This document shows positions 10,144 to 29,672 of a stretch of 64,000 nt of DNA, one piece after another. Origin of the DNA: Streptomyces sp. NBC_01275 (lineage in GTDB: Bacteria; Actinomycetota; Actinomycetes; Streptomycetales; Streptomycetaceae); NCBI RefSeq assembly GCF_026340655.1, contig NZ_JAPEOZ010000001.1, positions 868,001 to 932,000 of the forward strand. The letters run 5' to 3'. Positions within the stretch are counted from its first letter, which is position 1. Each line of letters starts with the position of its first letter. The notes below the pieces were generated by a model that was not told the DNA's origin, did no database searches, and saw only the letters and a list, made by a program, of their open reading frames with translations. Position numbers and translations under genes: made by a program.

Positions 10144-10587
10144 TCAGCCGGGCGGCAGCCGCCGGGCCATCTGGAGGTGCGCCAGCTGCCGGCCGCCCGA
10201 CGGGGAGCGCACCCAGACCCGAGTGACGGCGGCCTGGATGACGAACGGGGTGAGCTCGGGCACGAAGGCGACCCGCATCTCCTGCAGGCAGCTGACCACG
10301 GCCGTGGTGCCGAAGCGCTGGACGGTCACGTCATGGGTGTCCACCTGACTGGTACGCCCCAGGCGTGCCGCGTACCGCAGCCAGTCGTCGACGCCGTGGA
10401 TGTGGCCCACCGCCGAGTGCACGATCACGCAGTCGGGATGCATCAGGGCGCGGAGCGCCGGTTCCGGGTCCGGGAGGGTCTGTGCGACGAGCCAGGCGGC
10501 CTCGGCCTCCTCGACCGTGGCGGGAGCGGAGGCGGGGACGGGGGCAGCGGCGGCGAGGTCTTTTGCCGCGGTCGATGAGGTGGTCAC
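10144..10587 (-). CDS. NTF2/SnoaL-like protein A, coupled to a Rieske reductase
   Basis: A 147-residue protein with the small alpha+beta cone fold of the NTF2/SnoaL superfamily. The hallmark stretches are EEAEAAWLVAQ near the start, CVIVHSAVGHIHG in the middle, and CLQEMRV and TRVWV near the end. Two paralogues sit at 29256-29672 and 40062-40481 with the same AEAAWLVA box. The GTG start at 10587 overlaps the reductase stop as GTGA, so the two are co-translated. The role is unknown: it may be a divergent oxygenase small subunit, a substrate/product-binding isomerase, or an assembly partner. Confidence 0.85.
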   Translation of the reverse strand: MTTSSTAAKDLAAAAPVPASAPATVEEAEAAWLVAQTLPDPEPALRALMHPDCVIVHSAVGHIHGVDDWLRYAARLGRTSQVDTHDVTVQRFGTTAVVSCLQEMRVAFVPELTPFVIQAAVTRVWVRSPSGGRQLAHLQMARRLPPG

Positions 10588-11549
10588 AGCTCCAGCTCCA
10601 GGATCGGGGACTTCGACCGGGACGAGCACGGGGTGAACAGACCCTCCCCGCGCTCCTCGTCGGTCAGGACGTCGTCCCGGTGGTCGGGCTCACCGGCGCG
10701 CACCCGCACGATGCATTCGCCGCAGATGCCCTGTCCGCACGAGTTGGGCGCCTCGACGCCGTTCGCCAGCAGGACGTCCAGGACGCTCTGGTCCTCGGGA
10801 ACGAGGTACTCCGCTCCCGTGGAGGACAGGCGCACGGTGAATCCGCCCTCCCCTCCCCCGCCGGGCTCGGCCGCGACCGGGGGCGAGGCGCTGAAGCGCT
10901 CCTTGTGCAGGGCGGACGCGGGCCATCCGAGCTCGGCCGCCCGCCCCAGCGCGTAGTCCATGAAGCCGCCGGGGCCGCAGACGTAGACCGCGGTCCCGGG
11001 AGCGGGGTCCCCCAAGTCGCTTCCCAGATCCAAGCGTTGCTCCGGGGGCTCGTCGTCGAAGTGGAGGGTGACCCGTGGGTGGTGCTCCAGGTCGGCGAGG
11101 AAGGCGGCCTCGCTCCGGCTGCGGGCGCAGTAGTGCAGGTGGTAGTCGCCCCCGGTGGCGTCGAGGCTCTGGGCCATCGACAGCAGCGGGGTGATGCCGA
11201 TGCCGCCCGCGAGAAGCACGTGCCGACGCGCGGACGTCAGGCCGAAGCGGTTGCGCGGCGCCGCGATGCGCAGGGTGTCGCCCTCGGCGAGGGCGTGCAT
11301 GGCGCGTGAACCGCCGCGCGAGGCGGGCTCGTCGAGGACCGCGAGCCGGTACTGCTTGCGGATGCCCGGTGGTCCGCACAGGGAGTACTGCCGGATCAGC
11401 CCCGCCGTACCGACCTGTACGTCGATGTGGGCGCCCGGCTCGTACTCCCACAGCTCGTCGCCGTCGGCCCGGGCGAGGTCGAAGACCGCGATTCTCGGCG
11501 TGGCGTCGTACCGGGCCACGACGACCGCGTCCGTCCAGGTGGTGCTCAC
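10584..11549 (-). CDS. Rieske oxygenase reductase A (FMN, NADH, C-terminal 2Fe-2S)
   Basis: A 321-residue electron-transfer protein of the phthalate dioxygenase reductase/VanB class. The order is flavin domain (RQYSLCGPP), NAD domain (LLAGGIGITPLLSMA, YVCGPGGFMD), then a plant-type ferredoxin with cysteines in NSCGQGICGEC and a final Cys in FTPCSS. It passes NADH electrons to the oxygenase encoded upstream. The GTG start at 11549 lies 7 bp after the oxygenase stop. Confidence 0.93.
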   Translation of the reverse strand: MSTTWTDAVVVARYDATPRIAVFDLARADGDELWEYEPGAHIDVQVGTAGLIRQYSLCGPPGIRKQYRLAVLDEPASRGGSRAMHALAEGDTLRIAAPRNRFGLTSARRHVLLAGGIGITPLLSMAQSLDATGGDYHLHYCARSRSEAAFLADLEHHPRVTLHFDDEPPEQRLDLGSDLGDPAPGTAVYVCGPGGFMDYALGRAAELGWPASALHKERFSASPPVAAEPGGGGEGGFTVRLSSTGAEYLVPEDQSVLDVLLANGVEAPNSCGQGICGECIVRVRAGEPDHRDDVLTDEERGEGLFTPCSSRSKSPILELEL

Positions 11550-11556
11550 GCTTCGG

Positions 11557-12855
11557 TCACGCCCCTGCCGCCGTGGGCGCTGCCGCCCGGTCCGTCCCCG
11601 TGGGCGCCTCCGGCCGGGTGACGAGGCCGGCCTCCACACGGCGGACCGGCTCGCCGGGGGCGGCGACGCCGAGCGGGGTGCGTCCGGCCTCGACGTCGTC
11701 CAGCATGGTGCGCAGCATGCGCCGGAGCATGACAACGCCCCTGTCGGACGGCGCCAGGGTCTCTTCGGAGTGCTGGGTAATGGGACCCTGTGACCACTGG
11801 GCCTCGTAGTCGCCGGGAAAGCGCTGTTTCTCCTCCTCGCTCAGCTGCCAGCCGTCCTTGCCGTTCTGCTTGATGCCGAACATGAAGGACGTGGCCCGCT
11901 CGGGGTCTGCGGAGCGGATGGAGAAGACCAGCCGGTGGTGGGTGTCGTCGGCGGGGACGACCCAGATCAGCATGTCGTTGCGGACGTCGGGGGTCGAGCG
12001 GATGAAGTCGGGCAGGGCGATGATGTTGGGCAGCATGCACTCCACCGACCACTCCAGGTCGACGGGTGCGCCACCGTCGCCCTTGGTGTCCTGGTAGCGC
12101 CAGACGTACTTCACGCCGTTGTCGGTGCGGTGGTAGGTGGTGCGCTCGGCGGCGGTGCGGTGGTCGTAGTAGTGCTCGGGGAAGCCGGTCGTGCCGGTGC
12201 CCTGGAACTGGAACCCGCTGTGGTTGGAGTGCAGCCACGCGGCGTGGACGGGGTCGACGGCGTTCTCGAACAGCTGGAGCCAGTTGTAGTCCTGCTCCAG
12301 GCCGATGACCTCGGCGCCGGGCACCATCCAGCTGGTGTGGTAGCTCTCGCCCTCGCCCAGGGGTTCGAGGCTGTCGTAGTGCGGCAGCGGGGGCTTGAGC
12401 TCGGGCGGGCCCATGTAGACGAAGACCAGGCCGTAGGCCTCCTCCACCGGATACCACGGCTGACGTGCGAGATTGCGGCGCTTGCCGCCGTCGGGTTCGC
12501 AGGCCTGGTCCAGGCAGCGGCCCTGCACGTCGAACTTCCAGCCGTGGTAGCAGCAGCGGATGCCGTCCTCCTCGACGCGGCCGTAGAAGAGGCTGCTGCC
12601 GCGGTGCGCGCACCGCTCGAAGACGACGCCGGGGCGGCCCTGGCCGTCCCGGAAGACGATCAGGTTCTCGCCCAGCAGGCGCACGCGGTGCGGAACGTCG
12701 CTGGTCAGGGCGGTGGAGCTGGCGATCGGCTGCCAGTGGCGGCGCAGCGCCTCGCCCATCGGGGCGCCGGGGCCGACCTCGGTCAGGCGGGCGTCGTGGG
12801 AGGAGGGCTTACGGCCGTAGCCGGTTCCCGTGTCGGGCTCGGTCGGGTCGGTCAT
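11557..12855 (-). CDS. Rieske non-heme iron oxygenase A (phthalate 4,5-dioxygenase/O-demethylase-like)
   Basis: A 432-residue oxygenase. The Rieske 2Fe-2S ligands are Cys82, His84 (CAHRG) and Cys101, His104 (CCYHGW). The mononuclear iron site is visible as DPVHAAWLH. Its length and C-terminal form fit the homotrimeric alpha-only class (phthalate, vanillate, dicamba type), which hydroxylates or O-demethylates aromatic substrates. The ATG at 12855 sits 9 nt after GAGGAG; an ATG at 12864 directly abuts that ribosome site and is less likely. Module B carries a clear paralogue. The substrate is unknown. Confidence 0.93.
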   Translation of the reverse strand: MTDPTEPDTGTGYGRKPSSHDARLTEVGPGAPMGEALRRHWQPIASSTALTSDVPHRVRLLGENLIVFRDGQGRPGVVFERCAHRGSSLFYGRVEEDGIRCCYHGWKFDVQGRCLDQACEPDGGKRRNLARQPWYPVEEAYGLVFVYMGPPELKPPLPHYDSLEPLGEGESYHTSWMVPGAEVIGLEQDYNWLQLFENAVDPVHAAWLHSNHSGFQFQGTGTTGFPEHYYDHRTAAERTTYHRTDNGVKYVWRYQDTKGDGGAPVDLEWSVECMLPNIIALPDFIRSTPDVRNDMLIWVVPADDTHHRLVFSIRSADPERATSFMFGIKQNGKDGWQLSEEEKQRFPGDYEAQWSQGPITQHSEETLAPSDRGVVMLRRMLRTMLDDVEAGRTPLGVAAPGEPVRRVEAGLVTRPEAPTGTDRAAAPTAAGA

Positions 12856-13062
12856 GTGGACCATCTCCTCGGCGTTGAGGCAGGGGGACGCGTGTACGAG
12901 GGCCGTTCGAGGGGTCGGACAGTCCGCGGTCGAGGCTGCTTCGCGCTGTCGCGAGGCGTTGCGGTGCGAGTGTGCGGCGGCTCTCCGGCACCCTCGGGCA
13001 GAGGGACGGACAGGGGCGGACGGGCACGGCGAGCGGTGTGTGCCCCTGAGGCGTTTCATGCC

Positions 13063-13091
13063 GTTGTACGGCCCTGATGAAAAACTGTCAA
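13063..13091 (-). promoter_or_regulatory. Consensus sigma-70-type promoter for Rieske module A
   Basis: Read on the minus strand, TTGACA (13091-13086) is followed after exactly 17 bp by TACAAC (13068-13063). This is a near-perfect -35/-10 pair in an AT-rich island. It would give a leader of about 200 nt before the oxygenase start at 12855. That leader contains no convincing gene. Confidence 0.7.
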
Positions 13092-13304
13092 TGGCTCCGA
13101 CCTGCTTTGATGAATTACTTGCAGCCCCCTGTCGGATCGCCGGACGCCCTTGTTACGGTGACCCGGCACCGAGGTGACGCCCCGCTCGCGGACTTGGCCG
13201 CACCTCGTGACAACACCTGAGAACGTGCCGAGCCGGCGACCGCCTCCCCGCGATTTTCCGCAGCTCCTCCAGCGCGCGTTCGCTCCAGAGCCGAAGGAGA
13301 CGAG

Positions 13305-13337
13305 ATGTCCGGACCCAGCGCAGGACCCTCCGTATGA
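13305..13337 (+). CDS. Ten-residue leader peptide coupled to the GMC oxidoreductase
   Basis: An ideal ribosome site, GAAGGAG (13293-13299), precedes an ATG at 13305 that opens a 10-codon frame, [10 protein letters not shown]. Its stop overlaps the GMC start as ATGA (13334-13337). The GMC ATG has no good ribosome site of its own. The peptide therefore probably delivers ribosomes to the operon by translational coupling. It has no residue bias that would suggest classic attenuation. Confidence 0.5.
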
Positions 13338-14995
13338 GCGCCGGGCACGGCGCCGAGTACGACTACGTCGTCGTCGGCGCGGGTACGGCCGGCTGCGTCC
13401 TCGCCGCGCGCCTGTCCGCGGCCACCGGGACACGGGTGCTGCTGATCGAGGCCGGCCCGCCCGCGGACCGCGGTCTGCTCGTTCAACTCCCCCTCGGGGT
13501 CGGGCTGCTGTCGGGACGCAAGGACATCGGCTGGGGTTACGAGTCGGAGCCCGAGCCGGGCCTGAACGGCAGGCGTATCCCGGTCCCGCGTGGCCGGCTG
13601 GTCGGCGGCACCGGATCGGTCAACGGCTCGACCCATGTCCGCGCGCACCGCCTCGACTACGACGACTGGGTCACGTCCGGTGCGAAGGGCTGGGGTTGGG
13701 ATGACCTGCTGCCGTACTTCCGCCGCTCGGAGAGCAGTTGGCGCGGGGACACCGAGCACCACGGCGGGTACGGACCCGTCACCGTGTCGACCACGGTCCG
13801 GCGAGGTCCCTTCGGCCGCCGTCTGGACCGCGCCGCCCGATCGCTGGGCATCGAGTTCCCCGACGACACCCAGAGCGGGGACCCCACCGGAGCAGGCCAG
13901 GTCGAGAACGCCATCCACCGCGGGCGACGGCACAGCACCGCCGCCGCGTACCTGCGCCCCGCGCTGCGGCGACGCCCCGGCCTCGCCCTGCTCACCGGGG
14001 TGCTGGTGGACACGCTCGTGCTCGACCGGGGACGCGTGACGGGCGTCCGTGTCGTGAAGGGCGGACAGAGCCGGGTGATCCGGGCGGCCCACGAGGTCGT
14101 GGTCTGCGCGGGTGTCTACAACTCGCCGCAGCTGCTGATGCGTTCGGGCATCGGACCGGCGGATCACCTGCGCGAGCACGGCATCGAACCGGTGGCGGAC
14201 CTGGCCGGCGTCGGCGCCAACCTCCAGGACCACCCGGCGGCCCCCGTGCTGTTCGACGTCAGGGATCCGGTGACCTTCCACGAGCACCTGCGCGTCGACC
14301 GCGCGGCAGTGGGCGCGCTCCGCTGGCTGCTCACGGGGAACGGTCCGCTGGCCGGGATGCCCGAGTTCCTCTCCGCCTACATTCGCACCCGCCCCGACCT
14401 GGACCGTCCCGACGGGTTCCTCGGCATCCTGGCCGGCGGTTTCGACGCCCGGCCGTGGTTCCCCGGCATCCGGCCGCTGAAGGACCGGCACTGCGTGGCC
14501 CTCAACGCCGTCGCGACCCCCCGCAGCCGCGGCGAGGTCAGGCTGGGCTCCGCCGACCCGGCCGCCCCGCCGCGGATCACGTTCAACCTGCTCACCGAGC
14601 CGGAGGACGTCGCCGCGCTGCGGGAGACCGTGCGCACCACGCTGGCCCTCCTGCGCAGCCCGGAGGTCTCCCCGATGATCCGGGCGGAGCTCGCGCCGGG
14701 CCCCGACGTGCGCACCGACGCCGACTTCGAGCGCTATCTGCGCGAGACCGGCTACTCCGCCAACCACGCCTGCGGCACGTGCGCCATCGGAACCTCCGAG
14801 ACCGCGGTCGTCGACCCCGAGCTGCGGGTGCGCGGCATCGACGGACTGCGTGTCGTCGACGCGTCGGTGCTGCCGACCGTGCCCGGCGCGAACATCAACG
14901 CCACCGTCATCGCCGTGGCGGAGAAGGCCTCGGACCTGATCCGCGGGATCCCGGCAGCCTCCGGTGCCCCGCTCCGTGAGAGGACCGCGGGATGA
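13334..14995 (+). CDS. GMC-family FAD oxidoreductase (choline dehydrogenase-like)
   Basis: A 553-residue alcohol oxidase/dehydrogenase. The FAD-binding loop is [17 protein letters not shown] near residue 12. The GMC signatures are [17 protein letters not shown] (about 93-109) and [13 protein letters not shown] (about 258). The C-terminal active-site region contains [10 protein letters not shown] (catalytic His) and PGANINATV. It is first in a plus-strand operon with ATGA overlap to the next gene. It probably oxidises a benzylic or side-chain alcohol of the island's substrate, which is inference from context. Confidence 0.9.
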
Positions 14996-15414
14996 GGGAA
15001 CCACTGTCGTACGCCATCGCGCACAAGGCGGCCGAGGCCGCGCTGGACGCGGCCCGGGCCGAGGGGGCGCGGATCTGCGTGGCGGTCGTCAACCGCAGCG
15101 GCATCACCAAGGTGCTGCTCAGCGACGACGGAGTCGGCCCCATCGGGATCGAGACCGCGCGCCGCAAGGCCTACACCGCCGCCGTCACCGGCGTGCCGAC
15201 CTCGAAGTTCGCCGCTTTCGCCGCGTCACCCGCGATGGCGGTCGCGCCCGTGCACCACGTCGACGCCGGCCTCCTCGCCGTACCGGGCGGGGTGCCCATC
15301 ACCGTGGACGACGGCGAGGTCATCGGTGCCGTCGGCGTCGGCGGAGCCGACGCCGAGACCGACGAACGACTCGCCTCCCGCGCCCTGGAAAGCCTGAAGG
15401 ACCTGACCGCGTGA
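14992..15414 (+). CDS. HbpS/GlcG-family protein (DUF336), copy 1
   Basis: A 140-residue protein starting [18 protein letters not shown]. It has the family core [18 protein letters not shown], the ARRKAYTAA helix, [20 protein letters not shown] and the closing ADAETDE. HbpS of Streptomyces binds heme and GlcG is of uncertain function; related proteins occur in many catabolic operons. A paralogue with the same N-terminus lies at 25564-25986, beside the second Rieske module. There is no signal peptide, so it is cytosolic. Confidence 0.88.
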
Positions 15415-15451
15415 GCGCCTCTGCCGCCCGTGACACCAAAGGAGAACGACC

Positions 15452-16528
15452 GTGATCGAGGACTTCCTCGTCGTCGAGGGCGTGGCCCACAACTACAACT
15501 TCCGGCCCGAGAACTGCGTCAACCCGCACATCGGAGCGGCCATCGGCGAGCACCTCTACGGCCTGCACAAGCGGGTCAGCGGCCCCGAATACACCCTCGA
15601 ACGCTCCACCTACATGCAGGGCGCGGGCGCGGACATCATCGGCCGGGCCCTGCTCGCGGAGAGCCAGACCGACGTGATCGCCTACCACGAGACGCCCATC
15701 TACGGCCACTTCCGGGACGGGGGCTCGGCGCTGGGCTTCGGCCTTGAGATGCGCGAGAAGTGGCCGGAGCGCGTGCTGATCTACGGCGCGGTGTCCCCGC
15801 TGCACCCCGGCGCCCTGGACCGGGTGGACGAGCTGGTGGAGAAGCACCGGGTCAACGCCCTCAAGCTCTATCCGATCGACGTCGTCGAGGGCCGGGCGAC
15901 CGCGCTGGACATGGGTGACCCGGAGATCTGCTTCCCGCTGTTGGAGCGGGCCCGGCAGCACGGTCTGAAGGTCGTGGCCATCCACAAGGCCCTCCCGGTC
16001 GGGCCCGGGCCGACCTCCGCCCTCGGGATGAGCGACGTGGAAGCCGCCGCGCTGGCCTTCCCCGACCTCACCTTCGAAGTCGTCCACGGCGGCATGGCCT
16101 TCGTCGAGGAGACGGCCCTTCAGCTGGAGTCCTTCCACAACATATGGGTCAACCTGGAGGCCACGTCGTTCATGGCGGTCTACGCGCCCCGCCGCTTCGC
16201 CCAGGCATTGGGTGCCTTCCTCCAGGCCGGCGCCGCCGAGCGGATCATCTGGGCGACCGGCTGCGACGCCGTCCACCCCCGGCCGGCGATCGAGGCGTTC
16301 TGGAACTTCGAGATGCCCCGTGACCTGATCGAGGAGTACGGGCTGCCCGAGCTCACCAAGGAGATCAAGGCCGGCATCCTCGGCCGCAACTTCCTGCGGA
16401 TGCACGGAATCGACGAGAAGGACCTCCGCGAGCGCATCCGAGGCGACGAGTTCGACACCACCGAACTCCGGGAGCCGTGGGGCGGACGCGTCGCCCCGGT
16501 CGACGACGCGTTGGCCGGTGCCCGATGA
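15452..16528 (+). CDS. Amidohydrolase-superfamily protein (ACMSD/resorcylate decarboxylase-like)
   Basis: A 358-residue TIM-barrel protein from a GTG start preceded by AAGGAGA. The barrel-end residues visible are His in VVAIHKALP, His in EVVHGGMAF, and Asp in ATGCDAVHPRP, as in the Amidohydro_2 family of decarboxylases and hydrolases. The usual N-terminal HxH metal motif is not obvious; the place is taken by EGVAHNYNF. Decarboxylation or hydrolysis of a ring carboxylate or ring-opened product is the best guess. It overlaps the next gene as ATGA. Confidence 0.82.
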   Translation: MIEDFLVVEGVAHNYNFRPENCVNPHIGAAIGEHLYGLHKRVSGPEYTLERSTYMQGAGADIIGRALLAESQTDVIAYHETPIYGHFRDGGSALGFGLEMREKWPERVLIYGAVSPLHPGALDRVDELVEKHRVNALKLYPIDVVEGRATALDMGDPEICFPLLERARQHGLKVVAIHKALPVGPGPTSALGMSDVEAAALAFPDLTFEVVHGGMAFVEETALQLESFHNIWVNLEATSFMAVYAPRRFAQALGAFLQAGAAERIIWATGCDAVHPRPAIEAFWNFEMPRDLIEEYGLPELTKEIKAGILGRNFLRMHGIDEKDLRERIRGDEFDTTELREPWGGRVAPVDDALAGAR

Positions 16529-18224: not shown

Positions 18225-18887
18225 CTACGGCAGTTGAATGCCGAGTCGTCCTGCGATTTCGTGGGTGCTGACGCCGTAGGTCTCCCGGATCCGTACGCCG
18301 TCGGGGCCGACGTCGAAGACGCCGTGGTCGGTGTAGACGCGGCTGACGCAGCCGACGCCGGTGAGCGGGTAGGTGCACTGCGGCACGAGCTTGGGCTCAC
18401 CGGAGCGGGTGAAGAGCGTCATCATCACGTAGACGTCCCTGGCGCCGATGGCGAGGTCCATGGCGCCGCCGACGGCTGGGATGTCGTCGGGCTTGCCGGT
18501 GGTCCAGTTGGCGAGGTCGCCGTCGAAGGCGACCTGGTAGGCCCCCAGGACGCAGACGTCGAGGTGCCCGCCGCGCATCATGGCGAAGGAGTCGGCGTGG
18601 TGGAAGTACGCCGCCCCGGGCAGCTCGGTCACCGGGACCTTGCCGGCGTTGGTCAGGTCGGGGTCGACCGCATCGCCCTCGGCCTTCGGGCCCATGTTGA
18701 GCATGCCGTTCTCGGTATGCAGCACCACCCCGGAGCCGGCCGGCAGATGGTCGGCGATCTTGGTGGGCCGGCCGATACCGAGGTTGACGAAGGAACCGGC
18801 CGGGATGTCACGTGCGATGACGGCGGCCAGTTCATCCATCGAGAGCCGGTGGTCGGCGCGCACCTGATCGCTTCGCGTGCTGGTCAT
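18225..18887 (-). CDS. pcaJ: 3-oxoadipate/3-oxoacid CoA-transferase subunit B
   Basis: A 220-residue beta subunit. The catalytic glutamate lies in VLHTENGMLNMGP, and the family segments GGHLDVCVLGAYQV, PAVGGAMDLAIGA and CTYPLTGVGCVSRVYTD are intact. With subunit A it moves CoA from succinyl-CoA to 3-oxoadipate in the cytosol. Its start overlaps the subunit A stop as ATGA. Maleylacetate reductase in the same island makes 3-oxoadipate, which supports this substrate over acetoacetate. A truncated homologue lies at 43681-44006. Confidence 0.92.
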   Translation of the reverse strand: MTSTRSDQVRADHRLSMDELAAVIARDIPAGSFVNLGIGRPTKIADHLPAGSGVVLHTENGMLNMGPKAEGDAVDPDLTNAGKVPVTELPGAAYFHHADSFAMMRGGHLDVCVLGAYQVAFDGDLANWTTGKPDDIPAVGGAMDLAIGARDVYVMMTLFTRSGEPKLVPQCTYPLTGVGCVSRVYTDHGVFDVGPDGVRIRETYGVSTHEIAGRLGIQLP

Positions 18888-19579
18888 CGTGCCCCCTGCA
18901 CGGTGTAGTGACGGGCCTCGACCTGGACGACCCTGTCGACGTAGATGGACGGGGTGACGACGGCCTCGGGGTCGAGCTTTCCGGGCTCGACGACTTCGTC
19001 GACCTGGACGATGGTCGTCGTCGCGGCCGTGGCCATGACCGGTCCGAAGTTGCGGGCGGTCTTTCGGTACAAGAGGTTGCCCAGCGCGTCCGCGATGTGC
19101 GCACCGATCAGCGCGTAGTCGCCTTTGATGGGGTACTCCAGCAGGTACTTCCGGCCGTCGATCTCCCGCTCCTCCTTCCCCTCGGCCAGCGGAGTGCCGA
19201 CCGCGGTCGGGCAGTAGAAGGCGCCGATACCGGCACCGGCCGCGCGCATCCGCTCGGCGAGGTTGCCCTGCGGCACCACCTCGAGTTCGATCTTCCCGGC
19301 GCGGTAGAGGCCGTCGAAGACCCAGGAGTCGGCCTGGCGCGGGAAGGAGCACAGCACCTTGCGCACCCGGCCCGCGGCCAGCAGCGCGGCCAGCCCGACC
19401 TCACCGTTGCCGGCGTTGTTGGACACGATCGTGAGGTCCTTCGCGCCCTGCCGGATGAGCGCGTCGATCAGGTCGAACGGCATCCCGGCCAGACCGAAGC
19501 CGCCGACGAGGATCGTGGACTCGTCTTCGATCCCGGCGACCGCGGCGTCGGTGCTTTCGAGGATTTCCGCCCGGCTCAT
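18884..19579 (-). CDS. pcaI: 3-oxoadipate/3-oxoacid CoA-transferase subunit A
   Basis: A 231-residue alpha subunit with the CoA-transferase glycine loop ILVGGFGLAGMPFDLI near residue 25 and the GNGEVGLAALLAAGRV and NFGPVMATAA segments. It works with the subunit B encoded next. Its start overlaps the thiolase stop as ATGA, so thiolase, A and B form one translational unit. The set is the CoA end of the 3-oxoadipate pathway. Confidence 0.92.
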   Translation of the reverse strand: MSRAEILESTDAAVAGIEDESTILVGGFGLAGMPFDLIDALIRQGAKDLTIVSNNAGNGEVGLAALLAAGRVRKVLCSFPRQADSWVFDGLYRAGKIELEVVPQGNLAERMRAAGAGIGAFYCPTAVGTPLAEGKEEREIDGRKYLLEYPIKGDYALIGAHIADALGNLLYRKTARNFGPVMATAATTTIVQVDEVVEPGKLDPEAVVTPSIYVDRVVQVEARHYTVQGAR

Positions 19580-20781
19580 CGGTCCGACCCCATGACATCG
19601 CAGTTCTCGAGCACGACGGCCAGGCCCTGACCGACCCCGATGCAGATCGCGGCGACGCCGTAGCGCTGCCTCGTCTCGCGCAGCACCTTGGCCAGCGTGG
19701 CGAGAACGCGGCCGCCCGAGGCGCCCAATGGGTGACCGATCGCGATGGCGCCGCCCTTCTGGTTGACGATGCCCGGGTCGACCTTCCACGCGTCGACGCA
19801 CGCCAGCGACTGCACGGCGAAGGCCTCGTTGAGCTCGACCGCGCCCACCTGGTCCCAGCCGATCCCGGCCCGCGCCAGCGCACGGTTCGCGGCCTCGACG
19901 GGGGCGTAGCCGAAGGCCTGCGGCTCCAGCGCCATCACACCGCGGCCCGCGATACGGGCGATCGGGTCGGCCCCGATCACAGCCGCGGCCTTCTCGCTGC
20001 CCAACAGCACCGCGGAGGCACCGTCGTTGAGCGGGCTGGCGTTGCCCGCCGTGATGGTGCCGCCCTGCTCCGCCGTACGGAAGACCGGCCGCAGCCCGGC
20101 CAGGACCTCCGGCGTGGATCCGGCCCGGATGCCCTCGTCGCGCGCCAGGTCGACGCCTGCGACCGGCGCCACCAGGTCATCGTAAAAGCCCGATTCCCAT
20201 GCCCGGTAGGCGAGTTGGTGGGAGCGGGCGGCGAACTCGTCCTGCCGCTCACGGGAGATCCCGAAGCGCTCCCGGAGCTGCTCGTTGGCCTCGCCGAGGC
20301 TCACCGTCCACTCCTTCGGCATCCGCGGGTTGACCAGCCGCCAGCCGAGCGTGGTCGAGACAGCGGTGACATCGCCGGCCGGGAACGGCATCGCCGACTT
20401 CGGCAGCACCCACGGTGCACGCGTCATCGACTCCACGCCGCCGGTCAGCACCACCTCGGCATCACCGGACTCGATCGTGCGACTGGCCGTCATCGCCGCG
20501 TCGAGGCTCGACCCGCACAGCCGGTTGACCGTGGTGCCGGGCACGCTCACCGGGAGACCGGCGAGCAGCGCCGCCATGCGGCCGACGTTGCGGTTCTCCT
20601 CGCCGGCGCCGTTGGCGTTGCCCCACACCACGTCGTCGATCGCGGCGGGGTCCAGGCCCGGCACCCGGGCGAGCGTCGAGGTGATCGCGGCGGCGGCGAG
20701 GTCGTCGGGGCGCACCCCGGCCAGTGCGCCGTTGAAGCGGCCGAACGGCGTGCGTGACGCGGCGTAGATGAAAGCGCTCAT
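19576..20781 (-). CDS. pcaF: 3-oxoadipyl-CoA/acetyl-CoA C-acyltransferase (thiolase)
   Basis: A 401-residue thiolase. The nucleophile is Cys89 in TVNRLCGSSLDA, and the acid/base residues lie in GHPLGASGGR and CIGVGQGLAVVLE. The N-terminus FIYAASRTPFGRFNGALAGV is normal. The segment MTRAPWVLPKS is typical of PcaF-like 3-oxoadipyl-CoA thiolases. It cleaves 3-oxoadipyl-CoA to succinyl-CoA and acetyl-CoA. It heads the minus-strand thiolase-CoA-transferase operon and is divergent from a LysR gene 71 bp away. Confidence 0.92.
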   Translation of the reverse strand: MSAFIYAASRTPFGRFNGALAGVRPDDLAAAAITSTLARVPGLDPAAIDDVVWGNANGAGEENRNVGRMAALLAGLPVSVPGTTVNRLCGSSLDAAMTASRTIESGDAEVVLTGGVESMTRAPWVLPKSAMPFPAGDVTAVSTTLGWRLVNPRMPKEWTVSLGEANEQLRERFGISRERQDEFAARSHQLAYRAWESGFYDDLVAPVAGVDLARDEGIRAGSTPEVLAGLRPVFRTAEQGGTITAGNASPLNDGASAVLLGSEKAAAVIGADPIARIAGRGVMALEPQAFGYAPVEAANRALARAGIGWDQVGAVELNEAFAVQSLACVDAWKVDPGIVNQKGGAIAIGHPLGASGGRVLATLAKVLRETRQRYGVAAICIGVGQGLAVVLENCDVMGSDR

Positions 20782-20806
20782 GGCAACGAAGCTAATCCCG
20801 GGCCAC

Positions 20807-20844
20807 GATATTCTGAAGTACGCATATCCGAGCCGATTGATATG
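20807..20844. promoter_or_regulatory. LysR-type operator cluster between thiolase and LysR genes
   Basis: GATAT (20807-20811) pairs with ATATC (20824-20828) across 12 bp, and CATATC (20823-20828) pairs with GATATG (20839-20844) across 10 bp. The central ATATC is shared, giving three half-sites in the 71-bp divergent gap. This is the expected layout for a LysR recognition and activation site. Confidence 0.65.
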
Positions 20845-20852
20845 GACGACAT

Positions 20853-21734
20853 ATGGATCTGCGTCACCTGCGGTACTTCGTGGCGGTGGCCGAGGAGCGC
20901 CACTTCGGTCGCGCCGCCGAGCGGCTCCACATGGCCCAGCCGCCGCTCTCCCAGCAGATCCGCCAGCTCGAGACCGAGCTCGGCCTCGAGCTGCTCCACC
21001 GCACCACACGCCGGGTCGACCTCACCGAGGCCGGCCGGGCCTACCTCGAGCGGGCGCGCGCGATCCTCGCCGACGTCGACGAGGCCGCCCACCACGCACG
21101 GCTCGTCGCCGCCGGCTCGGTGGGCCACCTCGCGATCGGATGCGTGGGCTCGGCCACGTACAGCCTCCTGCCCGCACTCTCGCGGCGGCTCACGGAGGAG
21201 CTGCCCGGCGTCGACTTCTCCTTCCGCGGTGAGATGCTCGCCCCCGACCAGGTCGAGGCACTGCGCACCGGCGCGATCGATGTCGCCCTGCTGCGTCCTC
21301 CGGCGGCCGACCTCTCACTCACCGTGCGCACCCTGCGCCGGGACCGGCTCGTCGTCGCCGTACCGGTCGACCACCCACTGGCCCACCGTAAACGGCTGCG
21401 GGCAGCGGACCTGGCCGGTGCCGACCTGATCGTGCACTCCGCCGACCGCCGGTCGGTGATGTACGACGTGGTGCTGGGCCTTCTGCGCGACGCCGGTGTC
21501 GAGCCGCGCATCCGCCACGAGGTCGGCGAGACCTCGACGCTGGTCACGCTCGTGGCCGGCGGCCTCGGCGTCGCGGTCGTGCCCGAGCCGGTGACTGCGC
21601 TGGCGCTCGACGGCGTCACCTACCTGCCGTTGGCCGGCGCCGACGCCCGCGTGGAGCTGGCCGTCGCCCACCGCGCGGACCGCTCCGAGCCGCACCTGGC
21701 GCGCACCGTGGGGATCATCCAGGCGATGTTCTGA
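20853..21734 (+). CDS. LysR-family regulator (PcaQ/CatM-like)
   Basis: A 293-residue regulator. The N-terminal winged helix covers about residues 1-60 (RHLRYFVAVAEERHFGRAAE, MAQPPLSQQIRQLE). A periplasmic-binding-type effector domain follows (about 90-290), ending ARTVGIIQAMF. It is divergent from the 3-oxoadipate pathway genes and probably activates them on binding a pathway intermediate such as 3-oxoadipate or a muconate. Confidence 0.92.
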   Translation: MDLRHLRYFVAVAEERHFGRAAERLHMAQPPLSQQIRQLETELGLELLHRTTRRVDLTEAGRAYLERARAILADVDEAAHHARLVAAGSVGHLAIGCVGSATYSLLPALSRRLTEELPGVDFSFRGEMLAPDQVEALRTGAIDVALLRPPAADLSLTVRTLRRDRLVVAVPVDHPLAHRKRLRAADLAGADLIVHSADRRSVMYDVVLGLLRDAGVEPRIRHEVGETSTLVTLVAGGLGVAVVPEPVTALALDGVTYLPLAGADARVELAVAHRADRSEPHLARTVGIIQAMF

Positions 21735-24362: not shown

Positions 24363-24405
24363 GGGAGGACTCCTCAAGGCTTCGATGCTGCACGGAACCC
24401 CCGGG

Positions 24406-24485
24406 CAGTGACTTCAAGCGTTAACTCAAAACTAGCGCCAGTGACTTCAAGCTTCAAGTGAAAACGAGGTGGATTCACTTCAAGC
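24406..24485. promoter_or_regulatory. Three 33-bp-spaced ACTTCAAGC boxes (MarR control region)
   Basis: CAGTGACTTCAAGC occurs exactly at 24406-24419 and 24439-24452, and GATTCACTTCAAGC at 24472-24485. The three copies are 33 bp apart, three helical turns, so they lie on one face of the DNA. A CTTCA-agca-TGAAG palindrome overlaps the last copy (24478-24491). The array fills the divergent gap between the NmrA and MarR genes. Confidence 0.75.
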
Positions 24486-24510
24486 ATGAAGCGTCGGTAC
24501 ATTGGAGGGC

Positions 24511-25005
24511 ATGACGAACACCCCCGCTGACGAGGTGCCCCGCTGGCTTGACGAGGAGGAGCGCCGCGCCTGGCTCGGTTTGATGGGCGTGATGCGGCGC
24601 CTGGAACACGCGCTCGACACGCAACTGCGCGACGAGGGGCTGACACACTTCGAGTACGGGGTGATGGCGGCGCTGTCGGAGTCACCGCAGCGGGAACTGC
24701 GCATGAGCGCCCTCGCCGCGTACGCCGAGGGCTCGCTCTCCCGTCTTTCCCAGGTCGTGGCTCGTCTCGAGCGCAAGGGGTACGCCCATCGCCGCCCCGA
24801 TCCGGCCGACGGCCGCTACACCCTGGCCGCCCTGACCGACGAGGGATACGAGAAGATCGTCAACGCCGCTCCTGGCCACGTCGCAGAGGTGCGCCGCCTG
24901 GTGTTCGACCCGTTGACCAAGGCGCAGGTCAAACAGCTCTCCCACATCGGCCGACGCATCCTGCACGCCATCGACCCCGACCACAGCGACGGCGACCGCG
25001 GCTGA
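24511..25005 (+). CDS. MarR-family transcriptional regulator
   Basis: A 164-residue winged-helix dimer. Visible parts are LEHALDTQLRDEGLTHFEYG, the recognition region SALAAYAEGSLSRLSQVVAR, and the beta-wing KGYAHRRPDPADGRYTLAALT. The ATG at 24511 follows GGAGGG closely; a TTG at 24502 is a weaker option. It is divergent from the NmrA-DUF6069 operon and probably represses it through the three upstream boxes. Confidence 0.92.
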   Translation: MTNTPADEVPRWLDEEERRAWLGLMGVMRRLEHALDTQLRDEGLTHFEYGVMAALSESPQRELRMSALAAYAEGSLSRLSQVVARLERKGYAHRRPDPADGRYTLAALTDEGYEKIVNAAPGHVAEVRRLVFDPLTKAQVKQLSHIGRRILHAIDPDHSDGDRG

Positions 25006-25041
25006 GCCCCTCACACCGGCCGGGCGCCCACCCGTGGGCTC

Positions 25042-25073
25042 AGGCGCGCCGTCTCCCCGACGCCGGCGCGCCT
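25042..25073 (+). terminator. Terminator hairpin after MarR
   Basis: AGGCGCGCC (25042-25050) and GGCGCGCCT (25065-25073) pair perfectly across 14 nt, 36 bp past the MarR stop. A second stem, AGCCGGC/GCCGGCT, follows at 25095-25115. The rest of 25116-25563 shows no recognisable gene. Confidence 0.7.
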
Positions 25074-25563
25074 CTCGGGGCAAACACACAGACAAGCCGG
25101 CTCGCACGGCCGGCTGCTGCCGCTTCTCGCTACCGCCGCTTCTCGCGAATATCGAACACTTCCTGGCAACGGCGCCGCCCAACGAGATGAACAGCCGCGG
25201 AAGGCGCGAGGCCACGGGGCCGGCGTCGCATCAGAGTCCAGATAGACGATCCACAACCGGCTCTGACCAAGAGCGACGGAGAGCCGACCTCTCATGCGAC
25301 AAGCGCGGGGCGTGATCGCCACCGCGTCCGGCCTGGGCATGAAGTCCGACACACACGCTTCGGCCGCGAACTCCAGCTCACCCTTCCGCGCGAGCGGCGC
25401 CGTCATCGCATCGACCCGGGTCGACGGTCCTGGGAGCGCCGGGCACGCCACGCGAGGTCACACGGACCGGTGCCCAGAGATCAGCCATACCCAGGGGCCG
25501 CGACGACGGCAGAGACGCTCAGCCCAGCCGCCGCACCGACCAGGGGCATGTCCAGGCAACGAC

Positions 25564-25986
25564 CTACGCGACGATCTTCGCGACGGAATCGCGAGCCTGC
25601 TGCGCGATGCGGTCGTCAGTGACGTCGTCAGCCCCGCCCACGCCGATCGCGCCGATGACCTCCCCGTCGGCCGTCACGATCGGCACGCCGCCGGCGACCG
25701 GCAGAAGGTTGGCATCGACCAGGTGGGGAGGTGCCACCTGCATCTGCGGGGACGCGGCGAATGTCGCGAACTTGGCCGTGGGGACACCACTCACTGCCGA
25801 GGTGTAGGCCTTGCGTCGCGCGGTCTCCACGCCGAGGAGGCCAACGCCGTCGTCGCTGAGAAGGATCTTCGTGACGCCACTTCGGTTGACCACGACAGCA
25901 CACACCTTGTGCCCGTCGGCCCTTCCTGCTTCGAGAGCGGCAAGTGCGGCGCCGTGCGCGATCTCGTAGCTGAGCGGCTCTCGCAT
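25564..25986 (-). CDS. HbpS/GlcG-family protein (DUF336), copy 2
   Basis: A 140-residue paralogue of the protein at 14992-15414, with the same start (MREPLSYEIAHGAALAALE) and the same core (VVVNRSGVTKILLSDDG, ARRKAYTSAVSGVPTAKFA, GGVPIVTADGEVIGAIGVGG). It lies 95 bp after a TetR gene on the same strand and near the second Rieske module. Function in catabolism is unproven; heme binding or degradation, or a cofactor/sensor role, is known or proposed for relatives. Confidence 0.88.
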   Translation of the reverse strand: MREPLSYEIAHGAALAALEAGRADGHKVCAVVVNRSGVTKILLSDDGVGLLGVETARRKAYTSAVSGVPTAKFATFAASPQMQVAPPHLVDANLLPVAGGVPIVTADGEVIGAIGVGGADDVTDDRIAQQARDSVAKIVA

Positions 25987-26042
25987 GGAGCGGGTCCTTT
26001 CCTCGACGACCGAGCGCCCAGTATGTCGCCGCCCGACGCTAA

Positions 26043-26068
26043 TGTGAAGCGATCCTCGCATTCGCATC
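26043..26068. promoter_or_regulatory. Candidate operator before HbpS copy 2
   Basis: ATGTGAA near 26043 and TTCGCAT near 26062 form an imperfect 7-bp inverted repeat in the 95-bp gap between the TetR and HbpS genes. Read on the minus strand it contains ATGCGAATGCGA, matching ATGCGAATGTGA at 26881-26892 in front of the Rieske B operon. Confidence 0.45.
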
Positions 26069-26081
26069 ACAGGCCCGGAGC

Positions 26082-26723
26082 TCACTGCGCCGGTGCGCCG
26101 AGGAGGTACAGGCAGGCGACGCCCACGAGCTCGTCGGTGAGCTGACGCCACGTCAGCGGCCGGTCGGACTCGAACAGTTCGCCGTACAGCACGCGGTTCT
26201 GACAGGCCCCGTAGATCAACCGGTAGACGACGTCCAGGCGCAACTCCGGCTCCGGCGCGTCGATCATCGGCACGATCGGCTCCAAGAACTGCCGGAAGAC
26301 ACGGTTGGCGTCCATGGCAGCCTCGGACCCGACCCGAGCCACGGCGGCATCGGTGGCGCCCGCGGCCAGAAAGACGCGCATCAGACGCTCGTGCGCTTGA
26401 TACGTCTCGGTGAGCCCAGTGACCGCCGAGGCGACCAGCGCGGTCGGATCCGTTCGCAGCGGAGCGAAGCGGTGAATGATGTCGGCGCGAAACTGGTCGA
26501 TCATGTCGTGTTGCAGCGCCGCGAGCAGGCGGTCCTTGTCGCCGAACCGCCGATACACACTGCCCACCGAGACGCCCGCCCGAGAAGCGACGGCCGCGAT
26601 GGTGAGCGCCTCGGTGCCGCCCTCCTCGAGGAGGGCCGTACCCGCCTCCAGGATCCGCTGCCGGGTCAGTCGGCTGCGCGCCTGCTGCGCCGGGGGCAGA
26701 TCGAGTGTCGGTTCGGTACTCAC
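26082..26723 (-). CDS. TetR-family transcriptional regulator (module B)
   Basis: A 213-residue regulator with the HTH at about residues 18-64 (RQRILEAGTALLEEGGTEAL, AAVASRAGVSVGSVYRRFGD). The GTG at 26723 is chosen because the upstream frame is unlike the family. It is divergent from the Rieske B operon (277 bp away) and upstream of HbpS copy 2. A shared ATGCGAATG(C/T)GA motif in both control regions suggests it governs both. Confidence 0.9.
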   Translation of the reverse strand: MSTEPTLDLPPAQQARSRLTRQRILEAGTALLEEGGTEALTIAAVASRAGVSVGSVYRRFGDKDRLLAALQHDMIDQFRADIIHRFAPLRTDPTALVASAVTGLTETYQAHERLMRVFLAAGATDAAVARVGSEAAMDANRVFRQFLEPIVPMIDAPEPELRLDVVYRLIYGACQNRVLYGELFESDRPLTWRQLTDELVGVACLYLLGAPAQ

Positions 26724-26879
26724 CGCCCCAGCGTAAAGGCAGCCAGGGGCCATACGCCTCGGGCATGGACGGCACCGCGCCCGACCGGCCCGCGACCGAG
26801 GCCGCCATCGGGCCATTCCTCCCGGTCCGAGGGGGCACCGGGAGCACCCGAACGTGCCTCTTGACGCACGGTGAAGTGA

Positions 26880-26896
26880 AATGCGAATGTGAATTA
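26880..26896 (+). promoter_or_regulatory. Candidate TetR box before Rieske operon B
   Basis: AATGCG-AATGTG-AATTAA is a run of three AATNNG-like hexamers about 110 bp before the oxygenase start. A TTGACG hexamer at 26861-26866 could be the -35 element of the same promoter, which would place the box over the core promoter. Confidence 0.45.
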
Positions 26897-27000
26897 ACAA
26901 TCCTATTCGAGGTCGCACATGGCGGTGCTCTCGCAGGTGATCTCCCCCTGCCCTGCGCGCGCCACCGGCTGTGCGCCCGAGCCGCACGGGAGACAGCACG

Positions 27001-28287
27001 ATGACCACCACTTCAGAGGTCGACACCGGCACGGCCTACGGCCGCCCGAAGCCCTCGTACAACGCCCGCCTGCGAGAGGTGGGGCCCGGTACACCCATGG
27101 GTGAGGCGCTGCGTCGCTACTGGCACCCGATCGCCAGCTCCGAAACGCTGATCGCCGGCGCCCTGCCGCAGAAGACCCGCGTACTGGGCGAGGATCTGGT
27201 CGTGTTCCGGGACGGGCAGGGCAATCCCGGTGTCGTGATCGAGCGCTGCACACACCGCGGCGCCAGCCTCTTCTACGGGCGCGTCGAGGACGACGGCATC
27301 CGCTGCTGTTACCACGGCTGGAAGTTCGACGTCCAGGGCCGCTGCATCGAGCAGGCGTGCGAGCCGGGCCTGGGGCGCAGGCGCGACGCCGCCCGTCAGC
27401 CGTGGTACCCCGTCGCCGAGCGCTACGGCCTGGTCTTCGTCTACATGGGCCCGCCCGAGCTCAAGCCCGAACTCCCCCGCTATGACGCGCTGGAGAGCCC
27501 CGCGGAGGACGAGAAGTACTTCGCCAGCTGGCCGGTCCCGCACGCCGCGGTCCTCGGCATGCCGGCGGACTTCAGCTGGCTCAACATCTACGAGAACTCC
27601 GCCGACCCGACGCACGTCACCTGGCTCCACTCCACGCACAGCGGGTACCAGATGCTGGGCGCCGGCGCCTTCGGCTACCCCGAGAACTTCTTCGACCCGG
27701 CCACCATCGCCGAGCGCCTGACGTACGAGCGCACCGACCACGGTCTGAAGTACACCCAGCGGTTCGAGATGGAGGGCGAGGACGGCGAGGTCACCGAGTA
27801 CGGCTTCGCGGTCGATCAACACCTGCCCAACGTCTTCGGCCTGCCGGACTACGTGAAGCCCACGCCCGACGGGCGGGCAGACCAGTTGCTGTGGGTCGTG
27901 CCCTCCGACGACACCAGCCACCGGGTCTTCTTCTCGATCCGCACGAACGATCCCGAACGCATGGTCCGCTTCGTGATCGGCATCACGCAGAACGGGAAGC
28001 AGAACCACGAGCTGACCGACGAGGAGCGCCAGAGGTTCCCGGGTGACACGGAGGCCCAGGGCTCGCAGGGCGCGATCACCCTGGACTCCGAGGAGACCCT
28101 GGCCACCGGCGACCGCGGCGTCGTCATGCTGCGTCGCATGCTTCTCGCGATGGCCGACGACGTCGAGGCCGGGCGCGACCCGATCAACATCGTCCGCGAC
28201 GCGTCGGAGGTCCACCGCGTCGAGACCGGCCTCTTCACCCTCGGCAGGCGCCCGGCGGGCGACGACGCCACGGCCGCCGCAGTCTGA
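27001..28287 (+). CDS. Rieske non-heme iron oxygenase B
   Basis: A 428-residue paralogue of the oxygenase at 11557-12855. Rieske ligands are Cys83, His85 (CTHRG), Cys102 and His105 (CCYHGW); the iron site is DPTHVTWLH. The two proteins share long blocks (GVGPGxPMGEALRR-like start, FYGRV, ACEP, YMGPPELKP) but differ in the catalytic domain, so they probably act on different aromatic substrates. The ATG at 27001 follows GGGAGAC. It leads a plus-strand operon reaching the dioxygenase at 34151. Confidence 0.93.
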   Translation: MTTTSEVDTGTAYGRPKPSYNARLREVGPGTPMGEALRRYWHPIASSETLIAGALPQKTRVLGEDLVVFRDGQGNPGVVIERCTHRGASLFYGRVEDDGIRCCYHGWKFDVQGRCIEQACEPGLGRRRDAARQPWYPVAERYGLVFVYMGPPELKPELPRYDALESPAEDEKYFASWPVPHAAVLGMPADFSWLNIYENSADPTHVTWLHSTHSGYQMLGAGAFGYPENFFDPATIAERLTYERTDHGLKYTQRFEMEGEDGEVTEYGFAVDQHLPNVFGLPDYVKPTPDGRADQLLWVVPSDDTSHRVFFSIRTNDPERMVRFVIGITQNGKQNHELTDEERQRFPGDTEAQGSQGAITLDSEETLATGDRGVVMLRRMLLAMADDVEAGRDPINIVRDASEVHRVETGLFTLGRRPAGDDATAAAV

Positions 28288-28296
28288 GCGAGAACG

Positions 28297-29259
28297 ATGA
28301 ACAACGAGTGGTTCGACACCATCGTGGTCGCCCGGCGCGACGCGACCAGCCGGATCGTGGTGCTCGACCTGGTCAGGCCCGACAACGGCGAGCTCCCGGA
28401 GTTCGCCGCCGGCGCCCACGTCGACGTCCTCGTGGACGGTGCGGCCGGGCTGGTCCGTCAGTACTCCCTGTGCGGGCCGCCGCAGGACCGCACTCGATAC
28501 CGGCTGGCCGTGCTGGCCGAGGCGGCGTCGCGCGGCGGCTCGCTGGGGATGCACCGGCTCCGCGAGGGCGACAGGTTGCAGATCTCGCGTCCGCGCAACA
28601 GGTTCGGGGTCTCGGACGAGGCACGTCGCCATCTGCTGGTGGCCGGCGGCATCGGCGTCACTCCCCTGCTGGCGATGGCGCACGCGCTCGAAGCCAAGGG
28701 CGCGGAGCACGAGTTGCACTACTGCGCCCGGAGCCGGGCGGATTCGGCGTTCGTCGAGGAGTTGGAGAACAACCCCCGTGTGCAGCTCCACTTCGACGAC
28801 GGCCCGGACGACCAGCGCTTCAGCGTCGCCGGCGCCATCGGCCCGCCCGACCCCGAGGCGGCGATCTACGTCTGCGGTCCCGGGGGCTTCATGGACTTCG
28901 TGATCTCCTCCGCACGTGGAGCGGGATGGCCCGCCGAAGCGATCCACAAGGAGCGCTTCGCACCCGTGGAGGACACCGCCGCGCACACGGCGGGCGGGAC
29001 CTTCACTGTGCGGCTCGCCAAGTCCGGGAACGAGTACGAGATCAAGGACGGCGAGAGCGTCCTCGACGTCCTGCTCGCGGCCGGCGTCGACGCCCCCTAC
29101 TCCTGCCAGCAGGGAATCTGCGGCGAGTGCATCGTGCGCGTGCTCGCCGGAGAGCCCGACCACCGCGACGACATCCTGACTGATCGTGAGCGCGCCGACG
29201 GCATGTTCACCACGTGCTCCTCGCGAGCACACTCACCGATTCTGGAGTTGGACCTATGA
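28297..29259 (+). CDS. Rieske oxygenase reductase B
   Basis: A 320-residue FMN/NADH/2Fe-2S reductase, paralogue of the module A reductase. Visible are RQYSLCGPP (flavin), LLVAGGIGVTPLLAMA and YVCGPGGFMD (NAD), and the ferredoxin cysteines in YSCQQGICGEC with a last Cys in FTTCSSR. It starts 9 bp after the oxygenase and overlaps the NTF2-like gene as ATGA. Confidence 0.93.
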   Translation: MNNEWFDTIVVARRDATSRIVVLDLVRPDNGELPEFAAGAHVDVLVDGAAGLVRQYSLCGPPQDRTRYRLAVLAEAASRGGSLGMHRLREGDRLQISRPRNRFGVSDEARRHLLVAGGIGVTPLLAMAHALEAKGAEHELHYCARSRADSAFVEELENNPRVQLHFDDGPDDQRFSVAGAIGPPDPEAAIYVCGPGGFMDFVISSARGAGWPAEAIHKERFAPVEDTAAHTAGGTFTVRLAKSGNEYEIKDGESVLDVLLAAGVDAPYSCQQGICGECIVRVLAGEPDHRDDILTDRERADGMFTTCSSRAHSPILELDL

Positions 29260-29672
29260 CGACAACCGCATCCACCGCAACCACCGCAACCACCGGGACC
29301 ATCGAGGCGATCGAGCAGGCAGAGGCCGCGTGGCTCGTGGCTCTCACCGAGAGCGAAGAAGCGATCGCCTCTCTCATGCTGGAGGACAGCCGGGCCGTCC
29401 ACGGCCCCGTCGGAAAGATCGACGACGGCAGGACCTTCGCCCATTTCACCTGGACCCGCCGCCGCCACGTTTTCGCCAAGGCCGAGGAGCTCAGCATCAC
29501 GGTGCGTGGCACCACGGCGATCACCACGTGTCTCCAGGAGATGCACATCATCTTCGACGAGAGCCTCCCGCCGTTCCCGGTCCAGGAGACGGTGACGCGC
29601 GTCTGGGAGGAGACCTCGGAGGGCTGGCGCCTGGCGCACCTGCACCAGTCCAAGCGGATGCCGCCGGTCTGA
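29256..29672 (+). CDS. NTF2/SnoaL-like protein B
   Basis: A 138-residue paralogue of the protein at 10144-10587: EQAEAAWLVALT, RAVHGPVGKIDDG, TCLQEMHI, TRVWEE and a final LAHLHQSKRMPPV. The start at 29256 overlaps the reductase stop (ATGA). The gene order oxygenase-reductase-NTF2 is identical in both modules, which argues for a functional partnership with the oxygenase system. Confidence 0.87.
   Translation: MTTTASTATTATTGTIEAIEQAEAAWLVALTESEEAIASLMLEDSRAVHGPVGKIDDGRTFAHFTWTRRRHVFAKAEELSITVRGTTAITTCLQEMHIIFDESLPPFPVQETVTRVWEETSEGWRLAHLHQSKRMPPV

Follow-up and report, generated by a model that had tools for sequence, protein, structure and literature searches.

Two-component Rieske oxygenases are regarded as complete with an oxygenase and a reductase, and a locus in Streptomyces sp. 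NBC_01275 raises the question of what a third gene, encoding a small NTF2-like protein, contributes to such an operon. The window analysed here is the whole stretch of 64,000 nucleotides (NCBI RefSeq assembly GCF_026340655.1, contig NZ_JAPEOZ010000001.1, positions 868,001 to 932,000), with a G+C content of 70%, and it holds a Streptomyces gene island for aromatic-compound breakdown. Two copies of a module, sets 1 and 2, lie in it, in each of which the genes for a Rieske oxygenase (O), a reductase (R) and the NTF2-like protein (S) follow in the same order, set 1 on the minus strand and set 2 on the plus strand, and S overlaps R by 4 bp, at a GTGA junction in set 1 and an ATGA junction in set 2. 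This arrangement had been noticed in a preliminary description of the DNA, and the coordinates and junctions confirm it. The paralogues are 61% identical for O1/O2, 61% for R1/R2 and 40% for S1/S2. Searching the genome of the strain with S2 returned three S genes, the third of which, S3, is 45% identical to S2 and adjoins IclR-type and MFS genes near a flavin adenine dinucleotide (FAD) hydroxylase gene, without a neighbouring Rieske gene. The AEAAWLVA and VHxxVGxIxx-type motifs reported earlier for the two small proteins are indeed present in S1 and S2, and in S3 as well. The O-R-S association is real and conserved, and no description of such an operon or of an NTF2-like third gene was found in open-licence PubMed Central (PMC) full text among the matches listed. 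S is probably a separate helper and not a missing oxygenase subunit.

The domain content of the oxygenases, Rieske plus VanA_C in an operon without a beta-subunit gene, agrees with their earlier assignment to the alpha-only class. VanA_C scored above its cut-off in both proteins, and Ring_hydroxyl_A fell short of its cut-off in O1 and was absent from the matches listed for O2. The nearest PDB entries of O2, with which the search was made, were phthalate dioxygenase-type chains, the best being 7fhr, a putative phthalate 4,5-dioxygenase alpha. R1 and R2 both carry NAD_binding_1 and Fer2 above cut-off, which fits a VanB-type reductase. Similarly, S1, S2 and S3 all exceeded the curated cut-offs of NTF2-superfamily profiles (DUF4440/SnoaL_3), and in the predicted S model helices form a cone above a curved beta sheet, with a mean predicted local distance difference test score (pLDDT) of 89.9, so that the view of the small protein as NTF2-like holds.

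To define the linkage of S with O and R, genome_contigs was scanned once with S1-S3, giving 36 S loci from 20 genomes: 14 S2-type (L004-L017), five S1-type (L032-L036), 13 intact S3-type (L018-L030), a Mycobacterium copy (L031), and three broken or diverged S3 copies (L037-L039). O2-R2 stood beside S in all 14 S2-type loci and O1-R1 in all five S1-type loci, and at each of these 19 loci S started on ATGA or GTGA within a long open upstream frame. Seen from the oxygenase, O at a minimum of 59% identity was found in 11 of 392 genus genomes as 21 copies, 19 of which were adjoined by S and two, at L070 and L071, were not. Among the 19, L072 is interrupted by a run of N shortly past the S start, and L073, with a diverged S, has a 26-nt gap instead of the overlap. 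S matches at 1e-6 were confined to the same 11 O-bearing genomes, plus one weak match (7.2e-7) in G746. The order O-R-S is more than chance, and the three genes form the conserved module that had been proposed. At the level of genomes, O was also present in 18 of the 20 with an S locus (11 through whole-genome search, seven through an O beside S); the two O-less genomes, DSM 15324 and violaceoruber NRRL S-981, held only broken S, with 62 and 38 of 136 positions matched. Co-occurrence of S with phthalate-type Rieske genes, the check suggested at the outset, is borne out for one oxygenase clade. In a phylum sample of 396 genomes O or S was found in the window's genome only, among 151 genomes around the Mycobacterium O at E 1e-100 was found in that genome only, and S occurred in 2 of 72,556 plasmid records.

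The preliminary description had held that finding the family mostly without Rieske genes would count against a third component, and on this point the result was split: 19 of the 36 loci adjoin O-R and 17 stand apart from it, yet 15 of the latter belong to genomes that carry O at another place. The intact S3-type loci had IclR, FAD-hydroxylase and thiamine-diphosphate enzyme genes in 13/13 and O in 0/13 within the fetched flanks. Streptomyces himalayensis carries S3 and S1 with a single O1-type oxygenase and no O2, which makes S3 independent of O2. In Mycobacterium sp. 1465703.0, O is on contig C26 and both S genes are on C60. Near O on C26 are HbpS-like and TetR-like genes, the nearest R-like gene lies about 7 kb off with none directly adjacent, and S was not found in the stretch fetched around O. 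On C60, one S lies in a pca/IclR locus between the genes for 4-hydroxybenzoate 3-monooxygenase (pobA; 547.5 bits against a model cut-off of 351, with the equivalog TIGR02360 under its cut-off) and benzoylformate decarboxylase (735 bits, cut-off 493). Upstream lie protocatechuate 3,4-dioxygenase genes, which score above cut-off, and a pcaB-like gene, which at 314.4 bits stays under its cut-off of 355.75. The gene order on C60 therefore indicates that S can occupy the locus of a flavin hydroxylase away from any Rieske gene. The other Mycobacterium S adjoins an IclR-like gene and a CoA-transferase III gene. FAA-hydrolase and DUF3500 genes were also observed near a Mycobacterium S (L031).

The converse, O and R without S, was found in one clade comprising L070, L071 and the second set of L032 (L032:15092-16405), with TetR and short-chain dehydrogenase/reductase (SDR) genes nearby. 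The S profile had no match at ten Streptomyces loci whose oxygenases are 35-48% identical, and among the Pfam neighbours of those ten loci and of L070/L071, a check covering 54 of 64 listed genes after ten were dropped by hand, a SnoaL-type family was not among the 25 of 40 families listed. Likewise, the S profile had zero matches at the plasmid relatives L119-L125, which are seven of the 15 plasmid records whose oxygenase falls under 60% identity. Relatives about 44% identical kept O and R together without S (L119, L121, and L120 with one small gene between), and a search of the open-licence PMC literature on these relatives returned nothing useful. We therefore rejected a general coupling of NTF2-like proteins to phthalate-type oxygenases, S being absent at the ten distant loci and at L119-L125. 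Two of these plasmids have features of their own. The Rhodococcus pyridinivorans Y6 plasmid (L121, NZ_CP096039.1) carries two O-R pairs with identical protein accessions, about 45% identical to O2, with an IS1071-type transposase gene between them and no S. On a Paraburkholderia sprentiae plasmid (L122), a 42% oxygenase lies near FAA-hydrolase, DUF3500, heme-binding and SnoaL_4 genes, the SnoaL_4 gene being about 5 kb from O and not of the S family.

On a 47-row oxygenase tree the presence of an adjacent S needs two changes, best read as S having been gained once at the root of the clade and lost once, in L070, L071 and the second set of L032. A 22-row tree including the Mycobacterium O needs three changes, two gains and one loss fit equally, and the order of its main branches is not starred. 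In the S tree, in which the S row of L118 begins two codons late, a starred branch sets off S2 (16 rows), and likewise S3 (15 rows). The Mycobacterium O groups as sister with the O of L073 (100/99) and the Mycobacterium S of L031 is sister to the S of L073 (100/98), the second Mycobacterium S having been left out of the tree; these matching sister groups indicate a shared history of O and S even where the two are unlinked. Median ratios of non-synonymous to synonymous substitution rates (dN/dS) were 0.25 for S1, 0.43 for S2 and 0.27 for S3, and S is under purifying selection. Four residues, E23, H49, Q110 and R134, are invariant in 42/42 S proteins in all contexts, a pattern that a shared small-molecule function fits better than a shared protein interface, and we infer from the alignment that they are candidate functional residues.

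Taking these data together, we incline to the reading that S is a pathway-bound NTF2-fold protein, made in step with O-R, that handles a reactive product of aromatic hydroxylation, most likely as a small cofactor-free enzyme of a tautomerase- or dehydratase-like kind or as a product-binding protein, and not as a structural oxygenase subunit. S probably serves both Rieske and flavin hydroxylases in an aromatic-to-hydroxyquinol pathway. Among the three roles named beforehand (detached beta-like subunit, substrate gate and product-processing enzyme), the last is the best supported and we count it as supported, although the function itself is one that we infer. In such a scheme, O-R would hydroxylate or O-demethylate an aromatic substrate, S1 and S2 would be translated from the same message as O-R, and the product (a dienone, quinol or hydroquinone) would be bound by S1 or S2 in the NTF2 cone, where, with E23, H49, Q110 and R134 as candidate residues, S may speed its rearomatisation or hand-over. 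S3 would play the same part for the flavin hydroxylase. The intradiol dioxygenase would then open the ring, and maleylacetate reductase, CoA transferase and thiolase would complete the route. Far more tentatively, S might be the founding member of an oxygenase-coupled class of NTF2-fold enzymes that rearomatise or hand on an unstable hydroxylation product, one family working for Rieske oxygenases through S1 and S2 and for flavin hydroxylases through S3 and the Mycobacterium S, with the gene overlap holding S at the level of the oxygenase.

Several observations weigh against a product-handling role. The solved sequences nearest to S, a designed binder and CaMKII hub domains, are non-enzymes; none of the catalytic residue sets known from NTF2-fold enzymes was matched to S, and H128 is not invariant, being kept in 40/42 S proteins. 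Both O-less genomes lack further genes of the pathway, and the decay of S there is thus not specific to O. The two-component relatives at about 44% identity have no S, among them an Aminobacter O-R pair that lies with thiamine-diphosphate enzyme and 4-hydroxybenzoate monooxygenase genes, so that this context does not require S. Finally, an S1- or S2-type gene was never found away from O-R in the Streptomyces loci examined, and a partner of O-R would explain the strict overlap with R at S1 and S2 equally well.

These last two points lead to the strongest rival, that S is a true accessory component which binds O or R and there controls substrate entry, adjusts electron transfer or guards against uncoupling. 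Such a role would account for the order and 4-bp overlap at all 19 S1- and S2-type loci and on a Rhodococcus plasmid, for the S beside 19 of the 21 O copies, for its single appearance at the base of the oxygenase clade in the 47-row tree, and for the matching sister groups of O and S. We nevertheless consider it unlikely: S3 and the Mycobacterium S genes stand apart from Rieske genes, one clade retains O-R without S, L119, L120 and L121 combine O and R without S, and the Mycobacterium O has neither an adjacent S nor an R-like gene closer than about 7 kb.

Somewhat less probable still is that S binds ligands without catalysis, so as to carry or sequester toxic phenolic intermediates or to sense them as effectors, and makes no contact with O. 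The top PDB sequence match of the 21-row S profile is a designed cortisol binder, and S3 is flanked by the genes of an MFS transporter and an IclR regulator, both of which suit a binder, but S1 and S2 overlap genes of the oxygenase system and not regulators. That S is a mere operon passenger with no role in the pathway would suit the one O-R clade without S; with dN/dS between 0.25 and 0.43, three paralogues retained in one island and O in 18 of the 20 genomes with an S locus, we find this very improbable.

True dioxygenase beta subunits are NTF2-like, and S is encoded beside an alpha-type oxygenase, both of which speak for a detached beta-like subunit, an option named in the preliminary description; it would form an alpha3S3 complex. 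PF00866, the beta-subunit family, had no match to S1-S3 at E up to 1, and its only match in the window's genome was borderline and 9 Mb from the window; an hhalign comparison of S with eight PF00866 proteins of Streptomyces gave a probability of 1.9%. No chain titled dioxygenase beta subunit was among the 50 rows listed in the structure searches, which excludes nothing, and 3b8l, a "putative aromatic ring hydroxylase", was among the matches listed. With S3 and the Mycobacterium S in Rieske-free loci making a structural subunit unlikely, one O-R clade lacking S, and phthalate dioxygenase described, in a review (PMC12445004), as an alpha3alpha3 hexamer stacking through an extension of the catalytic domain, the beta-like subunit is the least credible of the explanations and we set it aside.

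The surroundings of the three S genes are collected in Table 1. The duplicated module is larger than O-R-S, a TetR gene and an HbpS-like (PF03928) gene belonging to each set. The gene for a different NTF2-like protein (SnoaL_4) immediately precedes that of the likely maleylacetate reductase, and the two occur together in 14/14 S2-type loci and also in Rhodococcus erythropolis R138. Further NTF2-like proteins were seen to accompany other pathway steps, the one at 31544-32140 in the window and two more in R138.

Table 1. Genes of the aromatic-breakdown island, with profile scores and occurrence among the loci of each type
Feature	Position	Strand	Evidence	Occurrence
TetR-type regulator, module 1	9351..10091	+	TetR_N 44.2 bits	5/5 S1-type loci
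S1, NTF2-like (DUF4440)	10144..10587	-	GTG start; DUF4440 41.8 bits (cut-off 25.2)	
R1, PDR/VanB-type reductase, NAD-binding + C-terminal 2Fe-2S	10584..11549	-	Fer2 48.6 bits, NAD_binding_1 24.8 (cut-off 22); GTG start inferred from frame	
O1, phthalate/VanA-type Rieske oxygenase (alpha-only)	11557..12855	-	Pfam Rieske 63.3 bits, VanA_C 25.9 (cut-off 23.5)	
GMC oxidoreductase beside O1	13334..14995	+	choline-dehydrogenase-like 481 bits, under cut-off 605	
HbpS-like protein, module 1	14992..15414	+	PF03928 101.2 bits	4/5 S1-type loci
Amidohydro_2 family protein, possible aromatic decarboxylase (putative)	15452..16528	+	PF04909 58.7 bits	
Two CoA-transferase subunit genes	18225..19801 (approximate span, two overlapping frames)	-	PF01144 228.5 + 112.2 bits	
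Thiolase	19576..21009 (start overcalled)	-	Thiolase_N 217.4, Thiolase_C 128.9 bits	
HbpS-like protein, module 2	25564..25986	-	PF03928 87.2 bits	14/14 S2-type loci
TetR-type regulator, module 2	26082..27032 (start overcalled, frame enters O2 start)	-	TetR_N 53.7 bits	13/14 S2-type loci
O2, phthalate/VanA-type Rieske oxygenase (alpha-only)	27001..28287	+	Pfam Rieske 66.5 bits, VanA_C 25.6	
R2, PDR/VanB-type reductase	28297..29259	+	Fer2 55.8 bits, NAD_binding_1 30.1	
S2, NTF2-like (SnoaL_3)	29256..29672	+	ATGA overlap with R2; SnoaL_3 31.9 bits (cut-off 22)	
Aldehyde dehydrogenase downstream of S2	29817..31307	+	aldehyde dehydrogenase models under their cut-offs	
Different NTF2-like (SnoaL_4) protein before maleylacetate reductase	31544..32140	+	PF13577 54.9 bits	
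Iron-containing alcohol dehydrogenase, likely maleylacetate reductase	32122..33207	+	PF25137/PF00465; R138 homologue annotated maleylacetate reductase	
Intradiol dioxygenase, likely hydroxyquinol 1,2-dioxygenase (putative substrate)	33216..34151 (start approximate)	+	chlorocatechol/catechol 1,2-dioxygenase models under cut-off	
Thiamine-diphosphate enzyme	36000..37745	-	acetolactate-synthase-like models under cut-off	13/13 intact S3 loci
FAD hydroxylase near S3 (3-hydroxybenzoate 6-hydroxylase/salicylate-hydroxylase-like)	37905..39104	-	255 bits, under cut-off 459	13/13 intact S3 loci
IclR/PcaR-type regulator between FAD hydroxylase and S3	39236..40033	+	TIGR02431 139.3 bits, under cut-off 284.75	
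S3, third NTF2-like paralogue	40062..40481	-	DUF4440 28.8 (cut-off 25.2), SnoaL_3 27.8 (cut-off 22)	
MFS transporter upstream of S3	40643..42637 (start overcalled)	-	MFS_1 130.7 bits	12/13 intact S3 loci

Its overlap with R, the joint duplication and the co-inheritance with one oxygenase clade suggest that this third gene stands for a step around hydroxylation beyond the textbook scheme. Knocking out members of the S family would be a simple way to learn whether the products of oxygenases require enzymatic hand-over, and the practical field is the breakdown of plant-derived aromatics by actinomycetes. As for the substrate, no match to the island linking it to hydroxyquinol or methoxyhydroquinone was found in the open-licence PMC literature among the matches listed, nor was there a match in the portion available of a paper on piperine (PMC12753220).

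Compared with known systems, O1, O2 and the reductases resemble in their domains the two-component phthalate/VanAB-type Rieske oxygenases such as phthalate dioxygenase and vanillate O-demethylase, from which this system differs by the extra NTF2-like gene overlapping the reductase gene and by the HbpS-like and TetR genes of the module. With the PF00866 beta subunits of alpha3beta3 dioxygenases S has in common the NTF2-like fold and a gene beside an alpha-type oxygenase, but no sequence or profile relationship was found, and S also occurs in Rieske-free loci. S is like the DUF4440/SnoaL_3/CaMKII-hub superfamily in profile matches, fold and nearest solved sequences, and unlike it in being a short protein of bacterial catabolic operons with invariant residues of its own. 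From open-licence PMC papers that join NTF2- or SnoaL-like proteins with Rieske enzymes, we followed a single related idea, MgaD of Pseudomonas sp. NGC7, a SnoaL-like protein that the accessible part of its report (PMC12314914) predicts to isomerise CHMA in syringate catabolism. Like S, MgaD is NTF2-like and encoded among genes for the use of lignin-derived aromatics, with a proposed role as a small-molecule isomerase, but it belongs to another family, Pfam SnoaL_4 (pfam13577), and an overlap with a Rieske operon is not described in that part of the report.

A close counterpart is the island on the Rhodococcus erythropolis R138 plasmid pLRE138 (NZ_CP007257.1; L117, 138000-178000), which has O-R-S with the overlap as in the window, together with TetR, HbpS-like, thiamine-diphosphate enzyme, maleylacetate reductase and dioxygenase genes. 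Four genes of the pLRE138 island are annotated as NTF2 family. Beyond what the window holds, pLRE138 carries P450, folate and formaldehyde-assimilation genes and a DesA/LigM-related gene (188.6 bits, cut-off 800), a gene content that hints at methoxylated aromatics as substrates. As with S3 in the window, an S3-like gene on pLRE138 stands beside an IclR gene and near that of an FAD-dependent monooxygenase.

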